The position numbers and the translations under genes are program-made. Below, in pieces: positions 20,714 to 48,940 of a stretch of DNA of 56,391 nucleotides. The notes under the pieces are model-generated. The model was not told the DNA's origin and made no database searches. It saw nothing but the letters and a program-made list of their open reading frames with translations. Position 1 is the first letter of the stretch; each line of letters begins with the position of its first letter. Origin of the DNA: Desulfobacula sp. (lineage in GTDB: Bacteria; Desulfobacterota; Desulfobacteria; Desulfobacterales; Desulfobacteraceae). The DNA is taken from contig JABGOU010000022.1 of NCBI GenBank assembly GCA_018645325.1, forward strand, positions 1 to 56,391, given 5' to 3'.

Positions 20714-20848
20714 GTAATTGTTCAGCCCGTTAAAAAAAGTTATCCCAAAAGCCCTGTCTGATGGATATTTGCAGGAGGTTAAGCGAATAGTCTCGAAACA
20801 AATATCCATCAGACAGGGCGGTTTCAAGCGTAAGAGCTGAATAATTAC
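20714..20848 (+). mobile_element. Miniature inverted-repeat element, copy A
   Basis: 135 bp. Termini GTAATTGTTCAGC (20714-20726) and GCTGAATAATTAC (20836-20848) are inverted repeats with one mismatch. It is flanked by a perfect 8-bp direct repeat AAAATATT (20706-20713 and 20849-20856). The interior is a perfect 21-bp hairpin (20751-20771 with 20799-20819) around a 27-base loop containing AGGAGG. It lies between the divergent cupin and U32 genes, ending 34 bases before the U32 start. The rest of the 359-bp gap holds the cupin promoter region and no gene. Confidence 0.88.
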
Positions 20849-20882
20849 AAAATATTAAACCTTAATAAAGGTATAAATAAAC

Positions 20883-22832
20883 TTGAACACACCCAAAATC
20901 CTTGCCCCGGCCGGGGATAAAAATTCATTTTTAGCAGCTATTGCTGCCGGTGCCGACGCTATCTACTGCGGTTTAAAAATATTTTCCGCACGCATGGAAG
21001 CCGATAACTTCAGCATTGAAGAACTTGCAAGATTAACCAGGCTTGCCAAATCCAAACGCATTGATGTCTATGTGGCATTTAATTCAATTATCAAGGAATC
21101 TGAGCTGGAAAAAGTTAGCAGAATCCTTAACAAACTCTGTACTTTTGTTGATTTTGATGCCCTTATTATTCAAGATCCTGCAATGATACCCTTAGCCCGA
21201 AAAGCAGGTTTTACAAAAGAATTTCACCTCTCGACTCTGGGCAATTGCACCTTTCCTTTAGCTTTAAAAACATCTCAACAATTTGGATTCAAAAAAGTTG
21301 TTCTGCCCCGGGAATTTACAATTGATGAAATAAAAACAATGGCTGAAAATATTCCCAAAGATATTGAACTTGAAGTCTTTATACATGGAGCGCTTTGTTA
21401 TTCCATTTCAGGACGGTGTTATTGGAGCTCATGGTTTGGCGGGAAAAGTTCCCTTCGGGGCAGATGTGTCCAGCCCTGTAGGAGAATGTATGAACAAAAA
21501 GGTCAGAAAAAAAGACATTTTTCCTGTATGGATTTTTCCGCTGATGTGCTTGCAAAAATTTTAAAACAAATTCCGCAAATATCGACCTGGAAAATTGAGG
21601 GCAGAAAAAAAAGCCCTCACTATGTTTATTACACTGTTAAAGCTTATAAACTCTTAAGAGATGATCCAAAAAACAAAAAACAAGCTTTGTCCTATCTTGA
21701 CTATGCCATGGGCAGAGAATTTTCCCATTATAATCTTTTATCCCAGAGGATAATGAATCCTTTGGATCATTCATCGGAAACCGGCTCAGGACTTTTTGCA
21801 GGAAGGATACAAAATCCTGCAACACCTTTTTTTATCACAAGAGAAGCTCTTCTGCCTTTAGATCTTCTAAGGATCGGGTTTGAGGATGATAAATTTCATG
21901 ACATTCAAAAAGTCACCCGGGCTGTCCCCAAAAAAGGAAAATTTTATTTAAACAAAAAATCAAAATTTAAAATCAAAAAAGGAACTCCGGTTTATATCAT
22001 AGACAGGAGAGGGTCAGAGCTTGCAAGTGTTATTAAAGATTTTGATACTGAACTTGCCGACATAGAAAAAATATCTATTCAACCTATTGAAGAAACTATT
22101 AAAAATTTTTCTTCTCCATTTATCCGAAAATCAAAAAACAAAATAAGAGAAATCACTCTTTCAAGGGGTAAACCCGGACAAAGACAAGACCATACAGAAA
22201 CAGGCGTATGGATTTCCACCCAGGGATATTCTATCTCTCCTTCAGGCAGGAACTGGTTGTGGCTGGATCCCCTTTTATTTCCAGGTGAAGAAAAGATATG
22301 CTCACAATATATTGCCACGGCCATAAAAAAAGGAGCAAAAAACTTTGTTTTAAACGCCTTCTGGCAATTGTCTCTTTTTAAAAATCCAAAAAAATTAAAT
22401 CTTTGGGCCGGGCCTTTCTGCAATATCACCAACAGCATGACCGTGAATCTTTTAAAACAACACGGATTTTCCGGCGCCATTGTCAGTCCGGAACTAGACA
22501 AAGAGACATTTAGTTCATTGCCCGGCAATTGCGATCTGCCAATCGGAGTTGTTATTTATGGCAACTGGCCTTTGGGCATTTCAAGAATCATTTCAGAGGA
22601 TCTTAAAACAAACCAGGCTTTTACAAGCCCCATGGGTGAAACAGCCTGGATATCAAAATTCAATAATAATTATCTTGTTTTCCCCAATTGGCGTCTGGAT
22701 TTAACTTCCAAAAAAGACACGCTTGCAAATGACGGGTTTTCACTCTTTATTAATATCCATGAAAATATACCCCGCTCAATTAAAATGAAAGACCGGCCGG
22801 GGTTATGGAACTGGAACCTGAAACTTTTATAA
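20883..22832 (+). CDS. Peptidase U32-family protein (RlhA/TrhP-like RNA hydroxylation type)
   Basis: U32 proteins were named as collagenases; characterised bacterial members (TrhP, RlhA) are needed for 5-hydroxylation of pyrimidines in tRNA or 23S rRNA. The 649 residues are close to RlhA length. The family signature EVFIHGALCYSISGRC is at 164-179, and four cysteines (C172, C179, C195, C199) are candidate cluster ligands. A U32 C-terminal domain follows. Start is TTG at 20883 with a weak AAAGG upstream. The leader is mostly mobile element A. Its end overlaps the convergent stress protein gene by six bases. Confidence 0.85.
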   Translation: MNTPKILAPAGDKNSFLAAIAAGADAIYCGLKIFSARMEADNFSIEELARLTRLAKSKRIDVYVAFNSIIKESELEKVSRILNKLCTFVDFDALIIQDPAMIPLARKAGFTKEFHLSTLGNCTFPLALKTSQQFGFKKVVLPREFTIDEIKTMAENIPKDIELEVFIHGALCYSISGRCYWSSWFGGKSSLRGRCVQPCRRMYEQKGQKKRHFSCMDFSADVLAKILKQIPQISTWKIEGRKKSPHYVYYTVKAYKLLRDDPKNKKQALSYLDYAMGREFSHYNLLSQRIMNPLDHSSETGSGLFAGRIQNPATPFFITREALLPLDLLRIGFEDDKFHDIQKVTRAVPKKGKFYLNKKSKFKIKKGTPVYIIDRRGSELASVIKDFDTELADIEKISIQPIEETIKNFSSPFIRKSKNKIREITLSRGKPGQRQDHTETGVWISTQGYSISPSGRNWLWLDPLLFPGEEKICSQYIATAIKKGAKNFVLNAFWQLSLFKNPKKLNLWAGPFCNITNSMTVNLLKQHGFSGAIVSPELDKETFSSLPGNCDLPIGVVIYGNWPLGISRIISEDLKTNQAFTSPMGETAWISKFNNNYLVFPNWRLDLTSKKDTLANDGFSLFINIHENIPRSIKMKDRPGLWNWNLKLL

Positions 22833-23654
22833 TTTTACGCTGCAGTATGGCCCTGTGATTAAAAGGTTGTTTGTTACAGTTGACTGAATCTGCTCCATTT
22901 TGCTTCCAAGCAGGATATCCTTAATAATTCCATGTCCATATGCCCCTAAAACGATGAGTGAATCATGGGGCACATCATACAACATGGTATTGAAATCTTT
23001 CTTTTCATAAAAATGCCAATGACCCGATAATTGCTTGACAGGTTCTGCAAGACCTTCTTTTTGTATTAAATCTTTATAGTATGCTTTATCCTGTTTCTCC
23101 AAAAGTGTATAGATCTTTAGACCAAAGCCTGAGGAAATGGCAATTTTCAATCCTAATTTCAATGCATTCAGTGCATTTTTAGAACCTCCAAAAAAAACAG
23201 AGATACTTTTCCAGGGTTTAAAGACTGGACTTGTAATTAAAATCGGAAATGGTGAATGCTTGATCATTCTTCTGACCTTTGGACCAATATGCCCCAGGCC
23301 TATTTTTGAAGAAAGGTCGCTGACAGACCTTGGACAGCACAAATAATCAAAATTGGTTGAAATATCCGGCAATGTTGATGCAGTATAGTTTTTTGGCTCA
23401 TAAAACATGGGTTTTATCTGCATTTCTTTAAACAGATCCTCGGCATGGCCTTTGGCAGTATCCGGAGATGTTAAATATGAATGATCCAGATCAACCTGAA
23501 CAGCATCATTGGAGAAATACATTAAAAATTTATCGTTCTTAGGAATATATGCGACAGGAAACGCATTGATTATTTTACAAAAATACAATGATTGAAGAAA
23601 GGTTTCCCTTCCAAAGGGGGTATTCCTGAAAATATGAAGCAATTTGTAATTCAT
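22827..23654 (-). CDS. Universal stress protein, tandem-domain type
   Basis: 275 residues, about twice a single UspA domain. The N-terminal half is divergent. The C-terminal half (about 145-272) keeps the ATP-binding pattern GAYGHG-x8-GS near residues 243-257. Third gene of an operon with a ClC channel and an HTH-EIIA protein, 21 bases after the ClC stop, which suggests a role in ion or osmotic stress (inference). Confidence 0.85.
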   Translation of the reverse strand: MNYKLLHIFRNTPFGRETFLQSLYFCKIINAFPVAYIPKNDKFLMYFSNDAVQVDLDHSYLTSPDTAKGHAEDLFKEMQIKPMFYEPKNYTASTLPDISTNFDYLCCPRSVSDLSSKIGLGHIGPKVRRMIKHSPFPILITSPVFKPWKSISVFFGGSKNALNALKLGLKIAISSGFGLKIYTLLEKQDKAYYKDLIQKEGLAEPVKQLSGHWHFYEKKDFNTMLYDVPHDSLIVLGAYGHGIIKDILLGSKMEQIQSTVTNNLLITGPYCSVKL

Positions 23655-23675
23655 CTTTCTCTCCTTATAAGATCT

Positions 23676-25403
23676 CTAATGGTCACTGGTTTGCATAATC
23701 AGTTCTCTGCGATACAAGTCCAGTATTCTTGTTTTTGATATCATACCTACAAACCTGTTATTTTCCACAACGGGCATGCTGTCCATATGATTGATATCCA
23801 TCATATCCAATACTTCCTGTAAATCATTTTCCAAAGATGCCGTCAAAACATTGGTATCCATGATCTGATTTAAAAACACCATGTCATACATCCCTGGATC
23901 CAGTGCAAATTTACGAATAGTACTGATTTGAATCACTCCTTTATATTCCTGTGTCCCATCTTCAATCACAGGAAAAAAATTCTGATCTGAGGTTTTTAAA
24001 AGCTCAATAAATTTTCTAAACACCATATTTTCAGAGACCTTTACAAATCCTGTCTCAATGAGTTCCCTGATATTTAAATCAGAAAGAATTCTTGCATCAG
24101 TACCTGGTCTTAAAAACTGTCCCCGCTCAATGAGTTCTTTAAAATAAAAAGAAGCAGGCTCTATATAGTGACTCATAGTGGATGAGATGGAGGATACAAC
24201 GATTAAGGGCAGGATGGTCTCATAACCGCCAGTGATTTCAACAATCAAAAAAATACCTGTTAAGGGCGCCTGCATCACACCACTGACAAGTCCTGTCATA
24301 CCCAGTAGCGCATATGCACCTTCACTTGCACACCCAAAAGACGGCACCAATATGATCAACATTTTATGAAACAAAACTCCGGTAAGGCTTCCGATTACCA
24401 GGCAAGGTGCAAATATCCCTCCGGAGCCTCCCCAGCCCAATGTCATTGCCGTTGCAAAAATTTTAGCAAAAACTGCTAAAAAAACAAAAAACATACCCAT
24501 TGAAAAAGTTCCGGAAATCATTGACTGAATTGAATGATATCCCTCTGCCAGAACCACAGGCATAAACATTCCAATGATTCCAACGGTACTCCCTCCAATG
24601 ATTGCACGGGCCCAAAAGGGAAGAGAAGATTTTTTTGCAATTTTTCCTGTCTGTCTTAAAACCTTTGTAAATAATACGGAAACCATTGCAGCAACCACAG
24701 CAAGGCCAAGGCTTGGTAAAATATCTGCACCCCCTACCTGAAACGGCAAATGGTTAAAAATTACCTGATCCGGGATAATGGCATGACTTACCTGTGCCCC
24801 GGCCACAGCGGCAATGGCAATGGGAATGATATTAACAAATTTCCATTCTCCCAGAATCACTTCGATAGCAAAAACCATACCTGCGATTGGGGCATTAAAA
24901 ATAGATGCAATGGCTCCTGCTGTACCGCATCCCACAAGCGTGATTCGCTGTCGATCGTTTAAACCCAAAAATTTGGCAATATTTGAACCAATAGCAGATC
25001 CGCTCATGACCACTGGCGCTTCAGGTCCGGCAGACCCTCCACTTCCAATGGTTAGAAAACTTGAAATTAACCTTGAATAACTGGATCGAAACCTTAGGAT
25101 ACCGCCATATCTTGATACAGAATATATCACTTCCGGGACACCATGCCCTGCCCCTTCCCTGGCAATTTTTTCAAGGTAAAAAGAGGACAGCAATGCTCCG
25201 ACAGCCGGCAAAATAAATGCCCAGCCATAGTGACGGAATGGATGAAGTATTTCAAGGACGGATTCCAGGGACAGCCGTAATGCCACTGCAGCAAGGCCAC
25301 TGCATATTCCTGCGATGGAACCGGCAATTATGAGCAGCAATCTGTCATCCAGTTGAAACAGCCTGCGGTATAAATTTTTGTAGAAATGTTTTATCTTAGA
25401 CAT
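23676..25403 (-). CDS. ClC-family chloride channel/antiporter with C-terminal CBS pair
   Basis: 575 residues: ClC membrane domain (about 20-430) and two CBS domains (about 450-570). Signature segments are GHGVPE at 86-91, GSAGPEAP at 123-130 and GGIFAPCLVIG. E128 aligns with the gating glutamate of GREGP, so antiport is possible. The usual Arg before it is Pro, and the Ser of the first motif (GSGIPE) is His87, so anion selectivity may differ from chloride. The CBS pair probably senses nucleotides. The gene lies between the stress protein and HTH-EIIA genes. Confidence 0.93.
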   Translation of the reverse strand: MSKIKHFYKNLYRRLFQLDDRLLLIIAGSIAGICSGLAAVALRLSLESVLEILHPFRHYGWAFILPAVGALLSSFYLEKIAREGAGHGVPEVIYSVSRYGGILRFRSSYSRLISSFLTIGSGGSAGPEAPVVMSGSAIGSNIAKFLGLNDRQRITLVGCGTAGAIASIFNAPIAGMVFAIEVILGEWKFVNIIPIAIAAVAGAQVSHAIIPDQVIFNHLPFQVGGADILPSLGLAVVAAMVSVLFTKVLRQTGKIAKKSSLPFWARAIIGGSTVGIIGMFMPVVLAEGYHSIQSMISGTFSMGMFFVFLAVFAKIFATAMTLGWGGSGGIFAPCLVIGSLTGVLFHKMLIILVPSFGCASEGAYALLGMTGLVSGVMQAPLTGIFLIVEITGGYETILPLIVVSSISSTMSHYIEPASFYFKELIERGQFLRPGTDARILSDLNIRELIETGFVKVSENMVFRKFIELLKTSDQNFFPVIEDGTQEYKGVIQISTIRKFALDPGMYDMVFLNQIMDTNVLTASLENDLQEVLDMMDINHMDSMPVVENNRFVGMISKTRILDLYRRELIMQTSDH

Positions 25404-25430
25404 TTAAGTTAGGCTGTTCCATTACCTTAG

Positions 25431-26108
25431 CTATATAGGGTTTGTTTTCTGAATAATTTCAATTTTTTCAATCAGACCAGCATAATCGGGTCCTGATTTT
25501 AGAAATTCTATAAACTTGTGATCCCTGAGACAAAATGACAAGGCAGATAATAAGTGCAAATGCATTTTTAAGTCCGGGCATAATATAAAAAATAATACTG
25601 ATACGCTTTTATTGTCCAAAGCTTTATAATCAACTGGGTTATCTAAAAAGCACACCGACACCAAAGGATTTTTTAAGTAATTTAATTGTTCCCTGGGATG
25701 GGGAATGGCAATACCATTTCCAATACCCGTTGAAAGTGCCTTTTCTCTTTCAATCAGCCGGTCAAGAAGATCAGACTTGAAATCATCCGGAATCATAGAT
25801 ATTTTTTCAATAGAAGATTGTAAAGCACTATTTACATCATGTCCTTGAATATCGAAATAGACTCCTCCGTTCTGGACCGCAACGGACAATGGGATTACGG
25901 ATAGCCTTTCTTTTTGAGGCATATTTTTTTTGTCGTAAAAATTCAATTTGATATTATGATTGGATGCCCATTTTTTTAATTCTTTTGCATCAAATCTGTA
26001 ATTTCTGCCTTTTTTAATAACGGGCAGTTTCCCCTGGCGTACCCACCGTTCAATAGTATCCTGAGCAACACCAAGTTGCTTCGACAAATCAAAAACCGAA
26101 AGTTCCAT
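25431..26108 (-). CDS. HTH (excisionase-type) - PTS EIIA (PtsN-like) fusion
   Basis: 225 residues. An N-terminal helix-turn-helix of the excisionase/MerR type (about 1-50, LSKQLGVAQDTIERWVRQGK) is followed by an EIIA domain of the fructose/nitrogen family (about 70-220). Its phosphorylatable His is H137 in GIAIPHPRE. The layout suggests a DNA-binding protein controlled by phosphorelay, or an EIIA tethered to DNA. First gene of the operon with the ClC and stress-protein genes, 27 bases upstream of ClC, so likely its local regulator (inference). Confidence 0.88.
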   Translation of the reverse strand: MELSVFDLSKQLGVAQDTIERWVRQGKLPVIKKGRNYRFDAKELKKWASNHNIKLNFYDKKNMPQKERLSVIPLSVAVQNGGVYFDIQGHDVNSALQSSIEKISMIPDDFKSDLLDRLIEREKALSTGIGNGIAIPHPREQLNYLKNPLVSVCFLDNPVDYKALDNKSVSVLFFILCPDLKMHLHLLSALSFCLRDHKFIEFLKSGPDYAGLIEKIEIIQKTNPI

Positions 26109-26417
26109 TTATTTTTCCTTTAATTATAACAGCCAAAGCAAAATATCTATTTTAATATTTTGGGTTTAAGCACATCAGGTACAATTTGGATACGCCTTCC
26201 GACGAAATCTTAAGAAAGATCAGGTCTGGCTGTTCAAGCTTTGCTCCAGAAGAATATCATATTTTCATTTATACATGTATCGTCCGCTATAAACTACTTA
26301 ATTCATAAACTTTTTTTCAGGCCTGTTATAAAGCAAACTGATATGAATGACAACCTTAAAAATTTATCTGATCTCCCGGGGCAGTGAGTTCAATCGTACA
26401 AAGGTAAAAACATCCAC
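26109..26417. other. Intergenic region between the EIIA fusion and higBA
   Basis: About 310 bp between divergent genes with no ORF or RNA gene that I can support. It must hold the promoter of the minus-strand EIIA-ClC-Usp operon, but no confident -35/-10 pair is visible. The 3' part passes into the higBA operator. Confidence 0.5.
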
Positions 26418-26470
26418 TATCTCAATGTAAGATATTTACCTTGACAAAATCTCAATTCGAGATATACAAT
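26418..26470 (+). promoter_or_regulatory. higBA promoter with two palindromic operators
   Basis: TTGACA (26441-26446) and TACAAT (26465-26470), 18 bases apart, form the promoter. Two related imperfect palindromes, TATCTCAATGTAAGATA (26418-26434) and AATCTCAATTCGAGATA (26448-26464), are spaced 30 bp, about three helical turns. The second lies inside the promoter spacer, so antitoxin binding there would block RNA polymerase. Confidence 0.8.
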
Positions 26471-26475
26471 AAAAC

Positions 26476-26763
26476 ATGCATATAATCACACGAAAACGAT
26501 TATTGGATTTTTCGAAAAAACATTCTGCTTGCAAAAAAGGACTTGAAACTTGGTATAGGATAATCAAGCACAGTAAATTTAATACGTTTACAGAGTTGCG
26601 AAAGGTGTTCCCAAGTGCAGATCAAGTTGGAAAATTTACCGTTTTTAATATTGGTGGAAACAAGGCCAGATTAATAGTGGCAGTCCACTACAACACCCAA
26701 CGTGTTTATATCCGGCATGTTCTGACCCATGCCGAATATGACACAAATAAGTGGAAGGAGTAA
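26476..26763 (+). CDS. higB: HigB-type toxin, mRNA interferase
   Basis: 95-residue RelE-superfamily toxin of the HigB type that cleaves mRNA on the ribosome. Conserved segments: TRKRLLDFSKKH, VFNIGGNKARLIVAVHY and YIRHVLTHAEYD. The start is the first ATG and matches family length. It begins only five bases after the -10 box, so the mRNA is probably leaderless. Toxin-before-antitoxin order is typical of higBA. Confidence 0.93.
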   Translation: MHIITRKRLLDFSKKHSACKKGLETWYRIIKHSKFNTFTELRKVFPSADQVGKFTVFNIGGNKARLIVAVHYNTQRVYIRHVLTHAEYDTNKWKE

Positions 26764-26767
26764 TACT

Positions 26768-27169
26768 ATGAATACTCAAATTAAAGAAGTTGCCAAAGTC
26801 TGGCCAAAGATACAAGATGTATTCACTATCCCCCACAATGACAAAGAATACAAAAAACTAGTTTCATTCCTCGACAGCATCATAGACGAAGTCGGCGAGG
26901 ATGAAAAACATCCCTTGGCATCATTAATGGAGACATTAGGTAGTTTAGTTGAGATCTACGAATCTCAAAATGTCCCTGAATTCCATGTTGATCCTATTTC
27001 TATGTTAAGAATATTAATGAGTGAGCATGGGTTGAAACAATTGGACATGAAGGAAATAGGAAGCCAAGGAGTTGTCTCAGAAGTTCTATCGGGAAAACGA
27101 TCCCTTAATTCTCGGCAGATTAAAGCGTTAAGTGAAAAGTTTGGAGTTTCACCCGCAGTATTTATTTGA
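26768..27169 (+). CDS. higA: HigA-type antitoxin
   Basis: Antitoxin with an N-terminal toxin-binding region and a C-terminal XRE-type helix-turn-helix (about residues 80-130, SEVLSGKRSLNSRQIKALS). 133 residues from the ATG at 26768, which has AAGGAG seven bases upstream and lies four bases after the higB stop. A longer in-frame start at 26729 would overlap higB and has no such site. It should repress the operon through the paired palindromes upstream of higB. Confidence 0.92.
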   Translation: MNTQIKEVAKVWPKIQDVFTIPHNDKEYKKLVSFLDSIIDEVGEDEKHPLASLMETLGSLVEIYESQNVPEFHVDPISMLRILMSEHGLKQLDMKEIGSQGVVSEVLSGKRSLNSRQIKALSEKFGVSPAVFI

Positions 27170-27405
27170 AAAGGAAAAACATTTTTAATCCAAACAAATT
27201 TACCGATCCTGCATAGCATCATTCAGCTCAGTTCCTGCCAAGCCGGCATTCAATTATATGTGCCAAAACCAGCATTGTAAGGCATTTTTCCCATATTAAA
27301 CCCTTTCAAGGTACCAATATAAAAAATTGACGGTGGGATTAAAGCTATTGGGTTTGCTGTTCATGATTCAAAAGATCTCCCCCAGGCTATCTGTCATCTA
27401 CATCT

Positions 27406-28149
27406 TTATTTAAAAAATGTCAGCAGGGCATGAAGGTTGGTAAGCGGGTGCGGAGGACAACCGGGCACAAAAAGATCCACAGGCAAAATAGTATCCAGGC
27501 CTTCTGTAATTTCAGGACTTCCCAAAAAAGGGCCGCCCGTTATTGTGCAGCTTCCCACTGCAATGACAACTTTTGGATCAGGAATCGCATCATATGTCGT
27601 TAATAACGCTGTTTTCATATTTCTGGATACAGGTCCTGTTACAACAATGCCATCTGAATGGCGGGGGGATGCCACAAAATTTATACCAAACCGTGCCAGA
27701 TCAAAAAACGGGGTTGCCAATACATTTAGATCTGCTTCACAGGCATTACAACCCGCTGCTGATACCTGCCTGAGCTGTAAAGACCGGCCAAATAATTTTT
27801 TAAAATGCTGTTTTGAGTGTTCGGCAAGGGCTGGAAGATCACCATTAGTCAACAAATCTTCTTTTTTGGAAGTAGCGATTTCAAAATCCCCCGTGAACTG
27901 AACAAATGCTCCATTTGAAATGCGTTCACAGGTGCCGCAGAATACACATCGCCCCATATCAATTTTTTTTAAAGCAATATCAATGGCATCTTGCGGGCAG
28001 GCATCTGCACACATTTCTACCATCTCCTGGGAAACATCTTTCTGTATGATCGGTCTTCCCCGATAACGTGGAAATACGGCTGGTTTTTCTTTAGGATAGC
28101 TACATGTTCTATAACCCTGTTCAAATCTATTTTTAAGTGTATTGAGCAT
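27406..28149 (-). CDS. Ehr complex: ferredoxin-domain / NiFe-hydrogenase small-subunit (NuoB-like) fusion
   Basis: 247 residues. The N-terminal ferredoxin domain has C47, C51 (CP) and C68-x2-C71-x2-C74, enough for one [4Fe-4S] cluster rather than two. The C-terminal NuoB/HycG-like domain has GCNACE (C134, C137), GSCTITGG (C201) and PGCPPHP (C231), ligands of the proximal cluster. It therefore combines HyfH- and HyfI-type roles as the electron-transfer arm. Last gene of the operon, 70 bases after the large subunit. The 236-bp gap to higA shows no feature. Confidence 0.9.
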   Translation of the reverse strand: MLNTLKNRFEQGYRTCSYPKEKPAVFPRYRGRPIIQKDVSQEMVEMCADACPQDAIDIALKKIDMGRCVFCGTCERISNGAFVQFTGDFEIATSKKEDLLTNGDLPALAEHSKQHFKKLFGRSLQLRQVSAAGCNACEADLNVLATPFFDLARFGINFVASPRHSDGIVVTGPVSRNMKTALLTTYDAIPDPKVVIAVGSCTITGGPFLGSPEITEGLDTILPVDLFVPGCPPHPLTNLHALLTFFK

Positions 28150-28219
28150 TTAAGACTCTCTTTTTCTTTTTTTAATTTCACTTAAGGTTAAAAAAAATAT
28201 TGTTTTGCATAGTTTCATA

Positions 28220-29728
28220 TCAAAGATCAAATCCACAATAAGAAAGATTGAAGCTTTTATTATTTAAAGGAAAATCCGATATCCCGGTGTCCCGCAAAGA
28301 CATTGATAGACCGTTCCAATTGTGAAAAGATGGATCCTTGACCTTGTACCGAAGTATTTTTCCATTTTTATCTGTCAGAACAGCATGGGATACTTCTCCC
28401 CGCCACGCCTCATTTAAGGTTACCACAAAAGAATCAGCAGGCAAATTATAATTAATATCATTCACACAATTTGTTTCAACGGGTATTCCAATCAAAGATT
28501 CTATAATACTCAGTGATTGCAAGACTTCATCGTATCTCATTCTTGCCCGGGCGTAAACATCACCGGACGGCTTTTTATTTTCTGGAATATCGATTTGATC
28601 ATAGTGCTCCGTTGGAAAACAGCGCCTGACATCATAGGGGATACCACATGCCCGGCCCGCCGGGCCGACAAGACCTAAATGGTCTGCATCTATATGACTT
28701 ACATTGCCGCAGTCTTCAAAACGAGCCCGCACCGTGGATGCGGAAAAAAGAAGGTCAAGAACATGTTCCACCTGGAGTCTTAATTCTTTGATCCGTTCAT
28801 CAAGAATTTTTCGAACATCATCGGACAGGGAGAAACGAACGCCTCCGGGGCGGACCAATCCTTTCCCGAACCGGTTGCCGCATAGCAAAAGAGACAGATT
28901 TAAAAAATCTCCACGCAGCCGTCCAAAATAATTGGCCGGTGGTAAAAATGCCACATCACCGCTTAACGCACCAAGATCACCTATATGATTGGCAAGCCGT
29001 TCCAATTCTAGTGCAATGGTTCGAATGATCCTGGCACCTTTATCGGGTTTAACCTGTGTCAGGGACTCAACTGCCTGTGCCATACAAAGGCTGTGACCAA
29101 TTGTTGTATCTCCGGCAATATTTTCAGTAAGGATGGGCAGCCTTTTTGCATGAACATTATAGAGCAGGTTCTCCACTGCCCTGTGCTGATACCCCAGTTG
29201 AATTTCCAGATTAAGTACGCGTTCACCAATGCAGTTAAACCTGAAATGGCCGGGTTCTATTACGCCTGCATGAACCGGCCCTACTGCGACCTCATGGATT
29301 TCATCACCCTCAACCTGGTAATACGGATAATTGCCCGGGATATCTTGTTCATAATCATTATCAAAAACATCCGGCATATTTCGATAGTTGGGATGATACC
29401 TGACCATTTTCAGCCAGGGGTGGCCCTCAGGTCGTATACCGAATTGTTCGGCAATTTCCCTTTCAAACATATGAAACGGCTCGCAGGTTTGAGTAAAGGA
29501 AGGATAGCTTTCCTTTGCATCACAACCTGCAACTAAAAGCTTGTCAGTTCTCAAAACAGCCAGCAATTTCATGGATGCATCATCCTGATAGCCGAAATAC
29601 TGAACAACCTTCCCGCCTTCTTTTACAATTGCCAGGGCCGTTTCATGAAATTCATCAAAAGGAAGATGAGGGATCTGTTCTCTTGCTAATTTTTCACCAT
29701 TTGATATTTCTAAAAAACCCGTTGTCAT
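28220..29728 (-). CDS. Ehr complex: HycE/HyfG-like large subunit lacking Ni ligands
   Basis: 502 residues. A NuoC-like N-terminal domain (about 20-130) is fused to a NuoD/hydrogenase large-subunit domain. In NiFe enzymes the first ligand motif is CxxC; here it reads NIAGDTTIGH (203-212), with A205 and T208 replacing the cysteines. The C-terminal motif DPCxxC reads FNLSYC (493-498), so Leu495 replaces one cysteine and only C498 remains. The protein ends four residues later, with no cleavable tail. This matches energy-converting hydrogenase-related (Ehr) complexes; the substrate is unknown. It overlaps the previous gene by four bases. Confidence 0.92.
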   Translation of the reverse strand: MTTGFLEISNGEKLAREQIPHLPFDEFHETALAIVKEGGKVVQYFGYQDDASMKLLAVLRTDKLLVAGCDAKESYPSFTQTCEPFHMFEREIAEQFGIRPEGHPWLKMVRYHPNYRNMPDVFDNDYEQDIPGNYPYYQVEGDEIHEVAVGPVHAGVIEPGHFRFNCIGERVLNLEIQLGYQHRAVENLLYNVHAKRLPILTENIAGDTTIGHSLCMAQAVESLTQVKPDKGARIIRTIALELERLANHIGDLGALSGDVAFLPPANYFGRLRGDFLNLSLLLCGNRFGKGLVRPGGVRFSLSDDVRKILDERIKELRLQVEHVLDLLFSASTVRARFEDCGNVSHIDADHLGLVGPAGRACGIPYDVRRCFPTEHYDQIDIPENKKPSGDVYARARMRYDEVLQSLSIIESLIGIPVETNCVNDINYNLPADSFVVTLNEAWRGEVSHAVLTDKNGKILRYKVKDPSFHNWNGLSMSLRDTGISDFPLNNKSFNLSYCGFDL

Positions 29729-41362: not shown

Positions 41363-41926
41363 ATGAAAATACAAAAAGTTAAAGAGTTAATGATTCCCTT
41401 ATCTGAATATGCCACGGTAAATGAGGATGACACTCTGGAAAAAGCCGTTAAAACGCTTTGTGATTCGCAAAAAGCGTTATCTATTGATGCCTATAAACAC
41501 AGGGCAACCCTTGTGTATGACAAAACCGGGGATATTACGGGGAAAGTCAGCTTATTTGATGTTTTAAGGGCGCTTGAGCCCAAGTACAGCCAGTTTGGGA
41601 ACTCGGATCATCTTTCCAAGATGGGATTATCACGATTTGGGCTGAGTAATGATTTTCTTCATTCTTTAGTTGAAAATTACAATCTCTGGGATGAAAGCTG
41701 TGAATCCCTTGTAGAAAAAGCAAAAAAAAGACCGGTAAAAGAGATCATGTATTCCCCCCAGGAAGGCGAATATGTCGACGAAGATCTTAGCATTCCAGAG
41801 GCGATCCATCATTTTATCCTGGGTAACCACCAGTCACTTCTTGTGCTTAGACAAAAAAAGGTTGTCGGGATATTAAGGCTTACAGACGTTTTTAAACTGA
41901 TTTGTGATCTAATGATAAAAGAATAG
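41363..41926 (+). CDS. CBS-domain pair protein
   Basis: 187 residues from the ATG at 41363, preceded by GGGAGAAG; a longer in-frame start inside the transporter gene is unlikely. Two CBS motifs (about 1-65 and 122-182, each ending in a short GKVSLFDVLRAL- or GILRLTDVFKLI-type helix) form a likely adenine-nucleotide sensor. Probably cotranscribed with the DASS transporter and likely to regulate it (inference). Confidence 0.87.
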   Translation: MKIQKVKELMIPLSEYATVNEDDTLEKAVKTLCDSQKALSIDAYKHRATLVYDKTGDITGKVSLFDVLRALEPKYSQFGNSDHLSKMGLSRFGLSNDFLHSLVENYNLWDESCESLVEKAKKRPVKEIMYSPQEGEYVDEDLSIPEAIHHFILGNHQSLLVLRQKKVVGILRLTDVFKLICDLMIKE

Positions 41927-41938
41927 TCAGAATTTATT

Positions 41939-41977
41939 CAGCAGGGCATAAAGAGGATCTAACTTCATGCCCTGCTG
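41939..41977 (+). terminator. Hairpin after the DASS-CBS unit
   Basis: CAGCAGGGCAT (41939-41949) pairs perfectly with ATGCCCTGCTG (41967-41977) over 11 bp. It begins 12 bases after the CBS gene stop. There is no T-run, so its termination strength is uncertain. Confidence 0.5.
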
Positions 41978-42141
41978 ATCCTGATCCATCCAATAAAAGC
42001 GATCTCGCATGTCCGGTACAGTGATATAAGTTCATTCCTGTCAAGGGTGCTAAACATGTACTGGGCAGGGAACCGGTCATGTGTACCGAATATGCAGTTA
42101 ATCTCTCCCACAATTTGTTCTATTGTAAGTTTCAGAACGGA
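41965..42141 (-). pseudogene. otsA: Remnant of trehalose-6-phosphate synthase (GT20, OtsA-like)
   Basis: One minus-strand frame between 42141 and about 41989 reads LKLTIEQIVGEINCIFGT and, a little later, LDRNELISLYRTCEIAF. This matches the GT20 stretch with VGEINGRFGT, then EELVALYRAADVAL, with spacing kept. The conserved continuation (TPLRDGMNLVAKEY) is lost, the frame closes at 41965, and a stop precedes it at 42142. No start codon or RBS fits. It is a decayed piece of a gene of about 470 codons lying just after the TauE gene. Confidence 0.75.
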
Positions 42142-42159
42142 TTACAAATTCAATATGAG

Positions 42160-43056
42160 CTAAATAAAAAAACCTGAAATATATTTTAAGGCGATAAACA
42201 TGATACAACAGGCTAAAATTCCTTTAATATATACTGCCCGGACAAATTTTTGAACCCTTGCTCCCAGGTACATACCCAAAAATCCGCCTGAACCGAACAG
42301 GGCACCCAGCATCCAGTCAGGCGACACAGCCATTTGTGGATAAATACCTGCCAAAAATTGATAGAAAATCACACCGGAAACCGATGTAACAAATGTACCT
42401 AAAAGAGCTGCTCCCGCAATCACATATACGGGCAGCCCTATGATTGTTACAAGTATGGGTGCAATGATTGATCCGCCCCCGATGCCATATATTCCGCCAA
42501 TAATCCCGACAAAAAAACAAAGAATATAAATGAATATCGGGGCGTAAGTATATACTTTCCCCCCAAATGTAAAAGAAACCTTTTTAAATGAGGCCTCCAT
42601 GACATCAAGATCATGAAAATCATTCAACTTGATATGATAGTTTTTTCCCTTTGTCTTGTCATTAAGGATTATATCTTTTAAAAGTTTCCATCCGATATAT
42701 AGCAGAACAAGCCCTGCAAAAAACTTAAAATTCCTTGGATCAGGCAAATACTCGATTCGCACCCATGCGCCAATAAAAACCCCGGGCAGAGTACCGATAA
42801 TGATAGCCTTGGCCAAAGGCCAAAGCATCCTTTTTTCCTTGATATACCGATATACCCCGCTTGGAATGGCAACGATGTTGAAAACATGATTGGTGGCGGA
42901 AACAGAAGGAGACGTATATCCAAGAAAGCTCATTTGGAACGGCAATAATAAAAAAGCTCCGGAAACACCGCCCATTGAAGTAAAAAATGAAACAACAAGA
43001 GCTGTGCAAAAAATGATATAAGGGTTGGCATGGATTTCTGCAATTGGGAAATACAT
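42160..43056 (-). CDS. TauE/SafE-family sulfite/anion permease
   Basis: 298 residues with about eight membrane helices in two repeats, each starting with a glycine-rich motif (SMGGVSGAFLLLPFQM near 27 and GGIYGIGGGSIIAPILV near 190). The family exports sulfite, sulfoacetate or related organosulfur anions; substrate unproven here. A hydrophilic insertion of about 35 residues lies between the repeats. The upstream region contains mobile element B. Confidence 0.9.
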   Translation of the reverse strand: MYFPIAEIHANPYIIFCTALVVSFFTSMGGVSGAFLLLPFQMSFLGYTSPSVSATNHVFNIVAIPSGVYRYIKEKRMLWPLAKAIIIGTLPGVFIGAWVRIEYLPDPRNFKFFAGLVLLYIGWKLLKDIILNDKTKGKNYHIKLNDFHDLDVMEASFKKVSFTFGGKVYTYAPIFIYILCFFVGIIGGIYGIGGGSIIAPILVTIIGLPVYVIAGAALLGTFVTSVSGVIFYQFLAGIYPQMAVSPDWMLGALFGSGGFLGMYLGARVQKFVRAVYIKGILACCIMFIALKYISGFFI

Positions 43057-43137
43057 TCTGTCTCCTGTTTTTACAAATAGTCTTCAAACATAGCCTGATA
43101 AATACCATTTTACGAGATATTGTAATTTTATCTGAAA

Positions 43138-43271
43138 GTAATTATTCAGCCGTTAAAAAAAATATTACCAAAGCCCTGTCTGATGGATATTTGCAGGAGG
43201 TTAAGCGTTTAGCATCGAACAAAAATATCCATCAGACAAGGCGGGTTCAATCGTAATAGCTGAATAATTAC
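43138..43271 (+). mobile_element. Miniature inverted-repeat element, copy B
   Basis: 134 bp. Termini GTAATTATTCAGC and GCTGAATAATTAC are a perfect 13-bp inverted repeat. Flanks ATCTGAAA (43130-43137) and ATTTGAAA (43272-43279) match 7/8. The internal hairpin has one mismatch relative to copies A and D (AAGGC for AGGGC in the right arm), a G-U wobble if transcribed on the minus strand. It lies between TauE and gdhA. Confidence 0.87.
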
Positions 43272-43348
43272 ATTTGAAAGATAATAAGGCCGGTGACAAA
43301 ATCCAACCGGCCTTATTAATTTATCCTTTTAAACTATAAGGAGAATAA

Positions 43349-44698
43349 TTAAACAACACCCTGATCCATCATTGAATCCGCCACTTTAACAAATCCTGCT
43401 ATATTGGCACCATTAACATAGTTGCCGGGGGTTCCGTATTCTTCTGAAGCAGAAAGACATGCACCATGAATACTTTGCATGATACCCTTGAGTTTGGCTT
43501 CCACCTCTTCACGGGACCATTTGATTCTCATTGAGTTCTGGGACATTTCAAGTCCGGAAACTGCAACGCCGCCTGCATTGGCTGCCTTGCCAGGGGCATA
43601 AAGAATTTTATTGTCAAGAAATATATCAACACCTTCCGGCATGGTGGGCATGTTTGCTCCTTCACTAACTAGATAAACGCCTTTATTTACCAGGTTCTGG
43701 GAATCTTTGGGATTGATTTCATTCTGGGTCGCGCTGGGAAAAGCGCAGTCTGCTTTATGATTCCAGATCGGATTGTGATCCACTCCCGCATCATGAGCCG
43801 TATAGACTGCTTCAGGATATTTTTCAATATATTCTTTGATCCTGCCACGTTTTACATTTTTCAGATACATGACATGCTGGAGTTTTGCTTGATCTATCCC
43901 TTTTTCATCATAAATATATCCGGAAGAATCAGAGAGTGTAATAACCTTTGCTCCCAGCTGGTTTAATTTTTCTGTGGTATACTGTGCAACATTGCCGGAG
44001 CCAGAAACCAGACAGACTTTATCTTTAAGGCTTTCGTTCCTTGTAGCCAGCATTTCCTCGGCAAAAAAGACTGACCCGTATCCGGTTGCTTCCGGTCTTA
44101 TCAGACTACCACCCCAGTTCAGGGCTTTACCGGTCAGAATGCCTGAAAATTCATTTTTTAATTTTTTATACATACCAAAAAGGTATCCGATTTCTCTTCC
44201 GCCCACACCTATGTCCCCTGCAGGAACGTCCGTGTCAGGGCCCAGGTGACGATAAAGTTCGGACATGAAACTCTGGCAGAATTTCATAACTTCATTATCT
44301 GATTTACCCTTGGGGTCAAAGTCAGACCCGCCTTTGCCACCACCGATAGGAAGAGTGGTCAATGCGTTTTTGAATACCTGTTCAAAGGCAAGAAATTTCA
44401 AGATGGAAAGATTGACGGAAGGATGAAAACGAAGTCCTCCCTTGTAAGGTCCAATTGCACTGTTCATCTCAATTCTAAAACCTCTATTTACTTGAACAAT
44501 ACCCTGGTCATCCACCCACGGAACCCTGAACTGAATCACGCGTTCAGGTTCTACGATTCTTTCCATGATTCTGGCATGCCGGTATTCTGAATTCCTGTCT
44601 AAAACCGGTTTGACTGATTCAGCAACTTCTGTTACTGCCTGATGAAATTCTTTCTCAAACGGATCTCTTGCATTGACTATATCCATTATTGTATCCAT
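43349..44698 (-). CDS. gdhA: Glutamate dehydrogenase (hexameric, probably NADP-dependent)
   Basis: Reductive amination of 2-oxoglutarate, joining ammonium to carbon metabolism. From the ATG at 44698 (AGGAGG 13 bases upstream) it has 449 residues, as in E. coli GdhA (447). Catalytic segment GGGKGGSDFDPKGKSD, the PAGDIGVGGREIGYLFG stretch and the nucleotide loop GSGNVA are intact. A 21-codon upstream extension to 44761 has no family match. Confidence 0.96.
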   Translation of the reverse strand: MDTIMDIVNARDPFEKEFHQAVTEVAESVKPVLDRNSEYRHARIMERIVEPERVIQFRVPWVDDQGIVQVNRGFRIEMNSAIGPYKGGLRFHPSVNLSILKFLAFEQVFKNALTTLPIGGGKGGSDFDPKGKSDNEVMKFCQSFMSELYRHLGPDTDVPAGDIGVGGREIGYLFGMYKKLKNEFSGILTGKALNWGGSLIRPEATGYGSVFFAEEMLATRNESLKDKVCLVSGSGNVAQYTTEKLNQLGAKVITLSDSSGYIYDEKGIDQAKLQHVMYLKNVKRGRIKEYIEKYPEAVYTAHDAGVDHNPIWNHKADCAFPSATQNEINPKDSQNLVNKGVYLVSEGANMPTMPEGVDIFLDNKILYAPGKAANAGGVAVSGLEMSQNSMRIKWSREEVEAKLKGIMQSIHGACLSASEEYGTPGNYVNGANIAGFVKVADSMMDQGVV

Positions 44699-44733
44699 TT
44701 TTACCCTATCGCCTCCTGTTTCAAATAAATCTT

Positions 44734-44791
44734 GGATTATCATAATCCGTATAAACGCCATTGTTTATATTTCAGAGCAAACGCCATTGTT
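44734..44791. promoter_or_regulatory. Direct repeat and palindrome upstream of gdhA
   Basis: GGATTAT-C-ATAATCC (44734-44748) is a perfect palindrome 35 bases before the gdhA ATG. AAACGCCATTGTT occurs twice (44753-44765 and 44779-44791), 26 bp apart. Together they look like regulator-binding sites; the longer gdhA start would fall inside the first direct repeat. Confidence 0.5.
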
Positions 44792-45041
44792 CATCCTGAA
44801 ATCAAAAATTAAATAATTTCATGATTTAATAAGTGTTATCATAAAACTATTTTATCTTGATGCTGCTAAATATACCTTGCACAATCCATCGTCAATAATA
44901 ATTTGCTTTTTTAACATGATTTTTAATATCCAATTACTTTTAACACCCTGATTTTATACTAAGCCTTTTCTCCGGAAGGTTTGATTCAACTGCTACCCGA
45001 TTATTGCGTGGATCTTTCACAAGGCTGCCACAAAAAATTTA
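44792..45041. other. Divergent intergenic region gdhA / trkA, gdhA side
   Basis: AT-rich, no gene or RNA that I can support. With element C and the following 140 bases it makes the 559-bp space between gdhA and trkA and should contain both promoters. Confidence 0.5.
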
Positions 45042-45177
45042 GTAATTGTTCAGCCAGTTAAAAGAGGTTATCTAAAAAGCACTGTCTGATGGATATTTGC
45101 AGGAGATTAAGCGAATAGCCTCGCCACAAAATATCCATCAGACAGGGCGACGTCAAGCATAAGAACTGAATAGTTAC
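45042..45177 (+). mobile_element. Miniature inverted-repeat element, copy C
   Basis: 136 bp, the most diverged copy. Left terminus GTAATTGTTCAGC, right terminus ACTGAATAGTTAC, flanked by a perfect 8-bp direct repeat AAAATTTA (45034-45041 and 45178-45185). Its hairpin has a mismatch near the base (GCACTGTC against GACAGGGC). It lies in the divergent gdhA-trkA region, 143 bases before trkA. Confidence 0.87.
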
Positions 45178-45320
45178 AAAATTTATAGAGTGCAGCAAAG
45201 ATCACCCGATGTTTTGGATGACGATTGAAGTTTATTATGGTCTCCCCATATTATTGACTATCATTAACTGATTTAGTAAGTTGTTTTCCAGGCTTTCATC
45301 AATGTTACAGGAGATATGTT

Positions 45321-46685
45321 TTGAAGATCATTATAGTTGGGGCCGGAGAAGTGGGTTATAACATTGCCGGCAGGCTTGCCTCTGAAAACAAGCAGGTTAT
45401 TGTCATTGACAAAGACCCGGATGCTGTCCGCCGACTTTCAGAGCGCCTTGACGTACAGGTTATTTTGGCATCCGGCAGCAACCCTAAAACTCTCATTGAT
45501 GCCGGCATCAAGGAGACCGATATCCTTCTGGCAGTGACGGACAGCGATGAAACAAACCTTGTCACCTGTCTTATGGCCGACCTGATATCACCCACAACTA
45601 AAAAACTTGCCAGGATCAGAAATTCTGATTTTGATTCATATTATGATCGTTTTAAAAAAGAAAACCCCCATATTGATACAATTATTAATCCTGAAATTGA
45701 GGTGGTAAACACCATCAAAAGATTGATGGTGGTGCCCGGTGCCGTCGATGTCGGTGATTTTGCCGACGGCCGGGTAAAATATGTCGGAATCAGACTTGAC
45801 AGGCATTCTCCCATGGCAGGAATGAAGCTCTTTGATTTTTCGTTAAAATTCGGTGAGGATCGGCCATTAATCGCTGCCATCATCCGAAACAACGAAGTTA
45901 TCGTTCCTAAAGGCGATAACAATATAGAATCCGGAGATTTAATATACTTTGTCAGTGAAACTGAAAAACTTGAAAAAATGCTGACTCTTTTCGGAAAAAA
46001 AATCATTCCCATCCAAAGAGCTTTAATTATAGGGGGCGGACGAATCGGTGAACGGCTGGCCAAATCATTTGAAACAGACTCAATCAAGACAAAGATCATT
46101 GAATCCGACATTGGCCGGTGCCATTACCTGTCTGAACGAATGGAAAAAACCGTTGTTCTGCACGGCGACGGATCTGATCAGAAACTCTTTCTTGAAGAAA
46201 ATTGCGGTCAAAATGATGTTGTTGTTTCAGTGACTAATGATGATGAAACCAATATTCTTGTTTCCCTTCTGGCAAAAAACATGGGGGTTAAAAATACCAT
46301 CACCAGGATAGGGAAATCAACTTATTTTCCCCTTCTTGCCACCATTGGTATAGAAAAGGTTGTCTCCCCCCGGCTTTCGGCTGTCAGTTCAATTTTAAAG
46401 GAGGTAAGAAAAGGAAAAGTTCTATCTGATATGTCCATTTTAGGGGGACGCGGTGAGTTTATTGAAGCCATCGCCCTTGAAACCTCTGACATTACTGATC
46501 AACCATTAAAAAAAATTTCCTTTCCCAAAGGTGCAATTCTTGTCTGCATCCTCAGAAATGGTCAGATTATGATCCCGGCAGGGAATAGTGTGGTCAATCC
46601 CAATGATAGGATCATCATGTTTGCGGTTAAACATGCCGTTAAAAAACTTGAAAAGCTGTTGACTGTTAAATTGGATTTCTTCTAA
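45321..46685 (+). CDS. trkA: Trk K+ transport regulatory subunit TrkA
   Basis: Cytoplasmic NAD(H)-binding gating subunit of the TrkH potassium channel. 454 residues with two RCK units, each a Rossmann fold (GAGEVGYNIAGRL near 7-19; GGGRIGERLAKSF near 238-250) followed by a TrkA-C domain. Start is TTG at 45321 with AGGAG upstream. Its stop shares one base with the trkH ATG. Confidence 0.97.
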   Translation: MKIIIVGAGEVGYNIAGRLASENKQVIVIDKDPDAVRRLSERLDVQVILASGSNPKTLIDAGIKETDILLAVTDSDETNLVTCLMADLISPTTKKLARIRNSDFDSYYDRFKKENPHIDTIINPEIEVVNTIKRLMVVPGAVDVGDFADGRVKYVGIRLDRHSPMAGMKLFDFSLKFGEDRPLIAAIIRNNEVIVPKGDNNIESGDLIYFVSETEKLEKMLTLFGKKIIPIQRALIIGGGRIGERLAKSFETDSIKTKIIESDIGRCHYLSERMEKTVVLHGDGSDQKLFLEENCGQNDVVVSVTNDDETNILVSLLAKNMGVKNTITRIGKSTYFPLLATIGIEKVVSPRLSAVSSILKEVRKGKVLSDMSILGGRGEFIEAIALETSDITDQPLKKISFPKGAILVCILRNGQIMIPAGNSVVNPNDRIIMFAVKHAVKKLEKLLTVKLDFF

Positions 46686-48136
46686 TGCGCTGGCAGTTTA
46701 TTGCACGGATTACGGGTATCCTTTTATTTTTTTTAGGGCTTTCCATGATTGCTCCTCTGCTTGTGAGTCTCTATTATCATGAGCTTGCTTTTGGCGATTT
46801 TATTCACTCCATCGCAATTACCACGATTGCAGGAATCATTCTCATCATTGGATCAAAAAAACGAGGCAGTGATGATTATATAAACCAGAAAGAAGGAATG
46901 GCAACAGTTGCATTGGCCTGGATGGCCATTACCCTTTTTGGTGCCCTGCCCTTTTACTTTGGACCTGAATTTACAAATTTTACTGATGCATTTTTTGAAT
47001 CCGTCTCAGGTTTCACTACAACGGGATCCTCTGTAATGACAAATATTCAAGGAGCGACAAAAGGCCTTCTTTTCTGGAGAAGCTTTATCCAATGGCTGGG
47101 CGGCATGGGTATCATTGTCCTGTCCCTTGCCATACTGCCGTTTTTAGGAGTTGGCGGTATTCAATTGTATAAAGCGGAAGTCCCCAGCCCCGTACCAGAC
47201 AAACTGACGCCAAGGCTAAGCGATTCTGCAAAAATTTTGTGGGCGGTTTATGCTTTTCTAACCTTAGCTGAAATCATTTTTCTACTGGGTGGAGGCATGC
47301 CTTTGTTTGAAGCATCCTGTCATGCTTTTACAACCCTGCCAACTGGTGGTTTTTCTCCAAAAAATGCCTCCATTGCCCATTATAACAGCACATATTTTGA
47401 TTATGTAATTGTTGTTTTTATGGTGTTGGCTGGAATTAATTTTTCACTTCATTATCAAATGTTGCGGGGTAAGACACTGGCTTTCTGGCAAGATACGGAA
47501 TGTAGATTTTTTCTTGGACTGGTACTTGTGTTAACACTGATCATGACATGGAATATTTATGGTTCTGTTTATACTTCCCTTAAAGACGCATTCCGGTTTG
47601 CAAGTTTCCAGGTTGTTTCGATCCTTACAACAACTGGATTTGGAACGGCTGATTATGAAATATTTCCAGGATTGAGCCAGGCACTGCTTTTTGTATGTAT
47701 GTTTATCGGCGCATCAGCAGGATCCACCGGCGGCGGGATGAAATGCGCCAGAGTCATTGTCTGCTGTAAATATTGTTATCGAGAGTTATTTAAAATCATT
47801 CACCCAAGAAGTATCAACCATGTAAAAATAGATAATACAGTGATCCCAAATGAAATTCTACGAAGTATCATGGGATTTTTAGCCCTGTATATCAGTCTTT
47901 TTATTGGGTCAGGTATTCTTCTTGCCGGCATGGGTATTGACATGATAACAGCTTTTGGTGCTGTTGCATCCTGCATTGGTAACATAGGTCCCGGGTTTGG
48001 AAGTGTGGGTCCCACTGAAAATTTTGCCCACATGCCGGTCATGGGAAAATGGCTTCTTGCATGGTGCATGCTCTTAGGCAGACTGGAAATTTATACGGTT
48101 ATTATACTCTTTGTTCCAGAGTTCTGGAAAAAATAA
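46685..48136 (+). CDS. trkH: Trk K+ transport membrane subunit TrkH
   Basis: Potassium-translocating channel subunit, 483 residues, with four pore-loop repeats. Selectivity-filter segments: VSGFTTTGSSVM, FTTLPTGGFSPKN, LTTTGFGTADY and CIGNIGPGFGSVG. It overlaps trkA by one base. A long palindromic element begins just after the stop. Confidence 0.97.
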   Translation: MRWQFIARITGILLFFLGLSMIAPLLVSLYYHELAFGDFIHSIAITTIAGIILIIGSKKRGSDDYINQKEGMATVALAWMAITLFGALPFYFGPEFTNFTDAFFESVSGFTTTGSSVMTNIQGATKGLLFWRSFIQWLGGMGIIVLSLAILPFLGVGGIQLYKAEVPSPVPDKLTPRLSDSAKILWAVYAFLTLAEIIFLLGGGMPLFEASCHAFTTLPTGGFSPKNASIAHYNSTYFDYVIVVFMVLAGINFSLHYQMLRGKTLAFWQDTECRFFLGLVLVLTLIMTWNIYGSVYTSLKDAFRFASFQVVSILTTTGFGTADYEIFPGLSQALLFVCMFIGASAGSTGGGMKCARVIVCCKYCYRELFKIIHPRSINHVKIDNTVIPNEILRSIMGFLALYISLFIGSGILLAGMGIDMITAFGAVASCIGNIGPGFGSVGPTENFAHMPVMGKWLLAWCMLLGRLEIYTVIILFVPEFWKK

Positions 48137-48139
48137 TTA

Positions 48140-48265
48140 GTGTTTGAACGAAAACTCACCCATCTACTGCGTTGCTGCAAAAGTTTGAAATCCTCATGTA
48201 CAGGAGTACACTCCGGTTTCAAACTTTCTTGCGCCTTGTATATGGGCAATTTTTCGCCCAAACAC
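48140..48265. repeat. Long imperfect palindromic element (second repeat type)
   Basis: 126 bp starting GTGTTTGAACGAAAA and ending TTTTTCGCCCAAACAC, with complementary blocks inward (CCCAT/ATGGG, then AAAGTTTGAAA at 48180-48190 with TTTCAAACTTT at 48217-48227, then GTAC around AGGA). No flanking direct repeat is seen. It sits between convergent trkH and the cyclic-nucleotide-fold gene, where it could terminate from both sides. Unrelated to the four GTAA elements. Confidence 0.75.
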
Positions 48266-48286
48266 GGGTTTCCGGTCAGGAACTAA

Positions 48287-48754
48287 TTATATGATTTCTG
48301 GATGGGCTGCCAAAGAATGTAAAAACTGACGTGTATGCATTTCCATTCTTGATTTAAAAATACCTACCACTTTCAGCATTAAGGTGTGGCCTATTTCAAA
48401 ATCTTCTTCAAATAATTGGCGCATCTGCTCACCTGAAATAGTAATAATTAAACTTGTCTCAGCACAGACTGCTGTAAATGTGCCGGATGATTCGCCCATT
48501 AAGGCGGAAACCCCAAATGTCCTGCCCGGTGATACTTCATCTAAAGTCAGAGATTCTCCTGAGGTTGATCTGCAGTTTAAAAAAACTTTTCCGGATAACA
48601 GCATATATAATAGGGTTTGTCCCTGATTTTGGCGAAACAGAATGCTTTCTTCATCAAATGTTTCAATTTGTGCAATAGCACCAATTCTTTCCAGTATGGG
48701 ATCCGGTAAATCTTTGAGAAAAACTATTTTTTTTAAATTCTCTTTTTCAACCAT
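48287..48754 (-). CDS. Cyclic nucleotide-binding-fold protein without DNA-binding domain (1)
   Basis: 155 residues from the ATG at 48754, chosen because it aligns with the start of the paralogue at 48950-49456; a GTG at 48784 is also in frame. One cNMP-binding beta-roll (FLKDLPDPILERIG to MRQLFEEDF) and a C-terminal helix, no helix-turn-helix. The phosphate-binding cassette reads FGVSALMGESSGTFTAV, so the usual Glu and Arg that hold cAMP are absent. Element D separates it from its paralogue. Confidence 0.85.
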   Translation of the reverse strand: MVEKENLKKIVFLKDLPDPILERIGAIAQIETFDEESILFRQNQGQTLLYMLLSGKVFLNCRSTSGESLTLDEVSPGRTFGVSALMGESSGTFTAVCAETSLIITISGEQMRQLFEEDFEIGHTLMLKVVGIFKSRMEMHTRQFLHSLAAHPEII

Positions 48755-48806
48755 TCTTATGGGCCCTCTCTTATGACTCCTCACTAAAAATATAGTAAAA
48801 TCATCC

Positions 48807-48940
48807 GTAATTGTTCAGCCCGTTAAAAAAATCATCCCCAAAGCCCTGTCTGATGGATATTTGCAGGAGGTTAAGCGAATAGCCTCGAAACAAATATCCA
48901 TCAGACAGGGCGGGTTCAATCGTAAGAGCTGAATAATTAC
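48807..48940 (+). mobile_element. Miniature inverted-repeat element, copy D
   Basis: 134 bp. GTAATTGTTCAGC (48807-48819) and GCTGAATAATTAC (48928-48940), flanked by AATCATCC (48799-48806) and GATCATCC (48941-48948), 7/8 identical. Perfect 21-bp hairpin 48843-48863 / 48891-48911. Nearly identical to copy A. It lies between the two cyclic-nucleotide-fold genes, ending ten bases before the stop codon of the second. Confidence 0.88.

Follow-up and report, generated by a model that had tools for sequence, protein, structure and literature searches.

Ends that begin with GTAA are typical of insertion sequences (IS) of the IS66 family. In the ISBst12 group of this family, the element ISDge4 carries one transposase gene between the ends GTGACTACTCAGCA and GTAACTGCTCAGCA and is flanked by an 8-bp direct repeat; its transposition has been observed and a copy-and-paste mode stated in a report which, in the parts available, terms the transposition mechanisms of the IS66 family insufficiently characterized (PMC12898284). 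Among miniature inverted-repeat transposable elements (MITEs), the excerpts available describe MITEPsy1 of Pseudomonas syringae as a non-coding element of about 100 bp that has terminal inverted repeats and is presumably mobilised by an IS whose ends are nearly identical (PMC3189936), and Chunjie of Geobacter uraniireducens as a multi-copy MITE, located mostly between genes, which has conserved ends and is accompanied by direct repeats (PMC10969869). Here we analysed a stretch of 56,391 nucleotides of Desulfobacula sp. (contig JABGOU010000022.1, hereafter the window), which holds four copies of a short repeat, together with the draft genome of its host, by kinship a marine sulfate reducer of the Desulfobacula type (G000; 157 contigs that total 4,385,846 bases, 90% complete). 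An earlier note on this DNA had read the repeats as non-autonomous IS66-type MITEs, and this reading is supported by 8-bp target duplications, by empty sites and by an IS66 element of a congener that has the same 13-bp end. The repeats are thus very probably non-autonomous MITEs that an IS66-family transposase of the one-gene ISBst12 type moves in trans.

Direct reading of the window confirmed the four positions and the flank matches given in the earlier note (Table 1). All four copies start with GTAATTRTTCAGC and end with a near-inverse of GTAATTRTTCAGC, and inside each of them there is a 21-bp palindrome with a loop of about 27 bases; the consensus folds into a single long stem enclosed by paired ends. 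In the terminal inverted repeats, 14 of the 18 end bases are paired in copies 1 and 4, and 11 of 18 in copy 3. The length was 134-136 bp in 71 of 87 readings from the host genome (one mirror reading included). No transposase coding capacity was found in the element, the longest reading frames that overlap copy 4 (43 amino acids) and copy 1 (46 amino acids) both extending outside it, so that the MITE is taken as a non-autonomous relative of the ISBst12 group and not as an IS66 element itself. The features looked for as signs of that group, GTAAYTRYTCAGC-like ends and an 8-bp duplication, are both present in it.

Table 1. Copies of the repeat in the window and parts of copy 4 (flank matches as identical bases out of eight)
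Feature	Coordinates	Strand	Length	Sequence, flanks and surroundings
MITE copy 1	20714-20848	+	135 bp	Duplication AAAATATT at 20706-20713 and 20849-20856 (8/8); U32 peptidase gene downstream
MITE copy 2	43138-43271	+	134 bp	Flanks ATCTGAAA/ATTTGAAA (7/8); TauE-type gene and Glu/Leu-type dehydrogenase gene on either side
MITE copy 3	45042-45177	+	136 bp	Flanks AAAATTTA/AAAATTTA (8/8); divergent dehydrogenase and TrkA-domain genes on either side
MITE copy 4	48807-48940	+	134 bp	Flanks AATCATCC/GATCATCC (7/8); between two same-strand cyclic-nucleotide-binding-domain genes
Copy 4, left terminal inverted repeat	48807-48824	+		GTAATTGTTCAGCCCGTT
Copy 4, right terminal inverted repeat	48923-48940	-		Inward reading GTAATTATTCAGCTCTTA; first 13 bases equal one end of IS66 copy L134
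Copy 4, internal palindrome	48843-48911	+		Stem of about 21 bp, GCCCTGTCTGATGGATATTTG/CAAATATCCATCAGACAGGGC, loop of about 27 bases; reverse-strand self match

The earlier note had proposed a whole-genome count of the copies and a tabulation of their flanks. For the count, a 21-base core was searched in the host draft with up to three mismatches, and 143 places were found (76 forward and 67 reverse), against none for the reversed pattern; the repeat is therefore far from chance. At about 135 bp each, these places would represent around 0.4% of the assembly. For the flanks, 86 distinct complete host copies were parsed, of which 56 showed identity at 8/8 bases, 14 at 7/8, 9 at 6/8 and 7 at fewer, and so the 8-bp duplications seen in the window are present at most parsed copies of the genome. 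Among the first 72 copies parsed, the flanks were identical as 8-mers in 50, but in only one each as 7-mers and as 9-mers, and because identity collapses at both neighbouring lengths, the duplication is specifically of 8 bp. When the left flank of one copy was paired with the right flank of another, 8/8 identity was found in 0.29% and 7/8 in 2.1% of the pairs. Perfect flanks were also found in relatives, in 19 of 30 copies of the genome G021, 12 of 16 of G014 and the single one of G011. Genomic copies lacking 8-bp flanks, which according to the earlier note would speak against transposition, did not appear as a general pattern. In 59 copies the duplicated octamers are AT-rich, with A commoner on their left side and T on their right.

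A sequence search of 97 genomes (E <= 0.001) gave matches in five of them. Four, the host, G021, G014 and G011, belong to one genus, so that carriers amount to 4 of its 26 genomes; the fifth match, in G063 of another family, covers 24 bases only and was judged to be chance. Contig C128 of G011 holds a right-end relic. An exact 29-base core, scanned against genome contigs from 84,980 species (a set that may leave out records of the window's own genome), was found in 55 stretches from three metagenome-assembled genomes (MAGs), namely Candidatus Desulfobacula maris, Desulfobacula sp. SI073_bin145 and "Proteobacteria bacterium" Modern_marine.mb.74. G018, G009 and G008 each gave one match to the end pattern with at most one mismatch, and these were rejected; the core is absent there, and the reversed pattern used as control likewise gave one match, in G017.

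The comparison of empty sites that the earlier note suggested gave a result for copies 1 and 4. At the site of copy 1, both flanks meet on contig C12 of G014, the two alignments overlapping by 7 bases, as corresponds to a single target copy (AAAATATA, in place of AAAATATT in the host). At the site of copy 4, the alignments of the two flanks in G021 are separated by 5 bases, with a single diverged version of the target at the junction. Of 21 congener loci, 16 align with both neighbour genes at a spacing of 4-107 bases and have no core there, and the remaining 5 have no alignment on one side. For copies 2 and 3 the core was detected in none of 25 congener loci (L268-L292), and since the alignments stop short of the insertion points, no empty site is claimed for them. 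Two further host copies were found within other short genomic repeats, L087 duplicating 8 bases of its host repeat (8/8) and L009 with a duplication of 6/8.

Among the parsed copies, to which this comparison was confined (more sites may be shared), at least three sites are common to the host and G021 (L042/L250, L081/L255 and L094/L115), so that some insertions predate the split between both genomes. At L081/L255 the 400 + 400 flanking bases are identical in G000 and the G021 MAG, whereas divergence is around 5-13% at the two remaining shared sites; the identical flanks may reflect a recent exchange or cross-binning. Conservation of the element at one place as an RNA in distant relatives, which the earlier note had named as contrary evidence, did not appear either, with these three sites found common to two genomes and the carriers restricted as described above.

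The family of the mover was approached through IS66 elements delimited without assuming the MITE ends. Matches to the transposase profile PF03050 were found in 15 of the 26 genomes of the genus, and three related transposases, used as queries against 389 genomes of the order, gave matches in 25 of them. The boundaries of 28 PF03050 loci of the genus and 30 loci of the order were then sought as ends of the form GTA...TAC whose flanking octamers agree in 7/8 bases or more. They were obtained in 19 of these 58 loci, 18 of them with 8/8 flanks (L182 duplicates L134, and L198 is weak), and were absent in the other 39, many of which are fragments or lie close to contig ends. Ends of the type GTAAYYAYTCAGC with 8/8 flanks were found in eight distinct loci of six genomes (L134, L184, L185, L187, L188, L189, L208 and L209), all of them 1718-1759 bp long and encoding a transposase. 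These ends match the MITE end in 12-13 of 13 bases, against 9-10 of 13 in the other IS66 groups compared. The best match, L134, from the congener G001, is 1759 bp long, with ends GTAATTATTCAGC and GTAACTATTCAGC, the octamer TATAATTT on both flanks as its own duplication, and a single open reading frame (ORF) of 471 amino acids that matches NF033517 (IS66 transposase) and PF03050. Its left end GTAATTATTCAGC is identical to the right end of the MITE over 13/13 bases. A full IS66 element with a 13-bp end of the MITE, as sought by the earlier note, is thus found in a congener, and similar ones in the order, but not in the host draft. On these sequences the matching group is narrower than IS66 at large and would correspond to the single-ORF ISBst12 type, a label given to L134 for its single ORF and its ends.

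We infer transposition in trans from the anatomy of the element. The transposase would recognise GTAATTRTTCAGC at both ends of the MITE and would insert it, mostly into AT-rich DNA, through cuts with a stagger of 8 bp, with copy-and-paste or cut-and-paste as the mode; an intact parent IS of the ISBst12 type would bear GTAATTRTTCAGCYC ends.

Several observations weigh against this assignment. The end of ISDge4 agrees with that of the MITE in only 11 of 13 bases, and beyond about 13 bp the ends of IS and MITE diverge, so that the group is identified and the individual parent is not. L134 sits in a genome without the MITE. In 16 of the 86 parsed host copies the flanks match at 6/8 or fewer. No L134-type transposase was found in the host draft (A1 profile, E <= 1e-60), its only PF03050 match being a broken IS66 gene on contig C106; the other three carriers also lack an L134-type transposase, with other IS66 matches in G021 and G014 and none in G011. 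The family therefore seems to lack its transposase in the host, or the gene is missing from the draft. The C106 gene was considered as the autonomous parent and rejected, as it is split and every place on the contig differs from the 15-base end motif by 3 mismatches or more. This gene (L063, 3115-7828 of C106) is interrupted by three adjacent tyrosine recombinase genes, which we take to resemble recombinase-in-trio elements. A 3.1-kb inverted-end pair on contig C278 of G021 also resembled a parent, and proved to be a MITE and a separate end without core or partner nearby.

The genomic context of the copies was studied in a set of 65 (the 86 parsed copies minus 19 with short flanks and 2 without a neighbour), with ORFs and not curated genes as reference. 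All except one, which lies within a short ORF (95 amino acids), are located outside ORFs, 35 of them between tandem ORFs, 15 between divergent ORFs and 14 between convergent ORFs, and only one of these 64 overlaps a neighbouring ORF by more than 15 bases. The median distances to the nearest ORFs are 63 and 42.5 bases. Such proximity, together with the position of copy 3 between divergent genes, would fit a later recruitment of the MITE, whose hairpins might affect the expression of neighbour genes at some sites. This idea is compatible with movement by an IS66 transposase, but we regard it as rather unlikely, because copies in tandem gaps show no clear bias in orientation (20 same, 15 opposite), and the intergenic location is accounted for by the probable loss of insertions within genes.

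As for the internal hairpin, it belongs to the mobile unit, most likely as a structural spacer or as a relic of the origin of the element. Among 83 host copies, the two arms varied at 2.0 and 3.8%, the loop at 6.2%, the two ends at 3.9 and 5.6% and the two spacers at 10.6 and 10.1%, with medians per column of 1.2-2.4% for arms and loop, 3.6% for the ends and 4.8% for the spacers. Since the left arm belonged to the search core, and much of the variation in spacers and loop comes from a few highly variable columns, the contrast between arms and spacers is suggestive only. That the hairpin, which varies less than the spacers, has a working role in transposition, as a folded signal thanks to which the MITE has spread more successfully than its parent, appears improbable to us; if true, it would go some way to account for 143 core matches in a draft where no intact transposase of the type was found.

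Movement by another transposase that duplicates 8 bp, such as those of the IS1595, ISL3 or IS256 types, with a coincidental resemblance of the GTAA ends, would agree with the absence of an intact IS66 partner from the host draft, and an 8-bp duplication alone is not specific to IS66. We nevertheless consider it very improbable in view of the 13/13 match at the boundary of L134, an IS66 delimited by its own duplication, and of the related IS66 copies that match at 12/13, in a comparison confined to IS66 transposases. Finally, a conserved structured RNA or regulatory hairpin (a terminator, a riboregulator or a signal like repetitive extragenic palindromes) in place of a transposon deserves almost no credence, since, apart from the partly biased constancy of the arms, it is contradicted by the duplications and empty sites, by the patchy distribution, by no match at the copies in an Rfam search at gathering thresholds, and by the lack of covariation in the hairpin across 126 copies, where 14 compensatory double changes were counted against around 26 double changes expected under independence, with 357 broken cells. 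With this, selection for RNA pairing found no support in those copies. A terminator was also rejected because convergent gaps are not in excess and, by eye and without a dedicated terminator scan, no T-run follows the stem in copy 4.

With an IS66-family transposase as the probable mover, the repeat represents a MITE family that is new but of a known kind, present in four genomes of one genus and with ISBst12-type IS66 ends; it is precisely this match of the ends that makes it a new family of an ordinary kind. It shares with ISDge4 similar ends and the 8-bp repeat, as far as the available text of that report goes (PMC12898284), and differs from the eight loci of the order in its length of about 135 bp, its lack of a transposase and its long internal hairpin. 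MITEPsy1, in the excerpt available, has a tentative assignment to IS5, a 4-nt duplication and six copies in strain 1448A (PMC3189936), whereas the Desulfobacula MITE has an 8-bp duplication, IS66-type ends and 143 core matches. Chunjie is longer, 178-235 bp, and was compared through the description given in a 2024 review of prokaryotic MITEs, without its ends or transposase family; in the part available of that review the term "IS66" does not occur (PMC10969869). In the open-licence literature searched, ISfinder and papers beyond it being outside the scope, we met neither a MITE tied to the IS66 family nor a MITE in Desulfobacula. Geobacter uraniireducens belongs to a lineage related to Desulfobacula, and Chunjie may be akin to the family described here. 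For Desulfobacula-type bacteria, the new family provides insertion markers restricted to the genus, and the abundance of its copies, along with their empty sites, makes it a natural sample of the target choice and end requirements of IS66 elements.

Other repeats were found along with the MITE. A second, unrelated one at 48134-48290 of the window, of around 155 bp, with an end starting GTGTTTGAACGAAAAC and an internal palindrome, has 21 pattern places in the host and copies 81-99% identical in at least 13 congeners, several of them with TAATTA-like flanking repeats. A third short repeat with GGGTCCACTCAAAAAT ends has 16 pattern places in the host genome. In some MITE copies it is inserted into the loop of the hairpin, with an apparent duplication of TAA, and it also hosts MITE copies in turn, so that both are mutually nested (L076, L091, L101 and L087). 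Elsewhere in the window, a 6S RNA gene was detected on the minus strand at 3180-3370, with a score of 91.1 bits.

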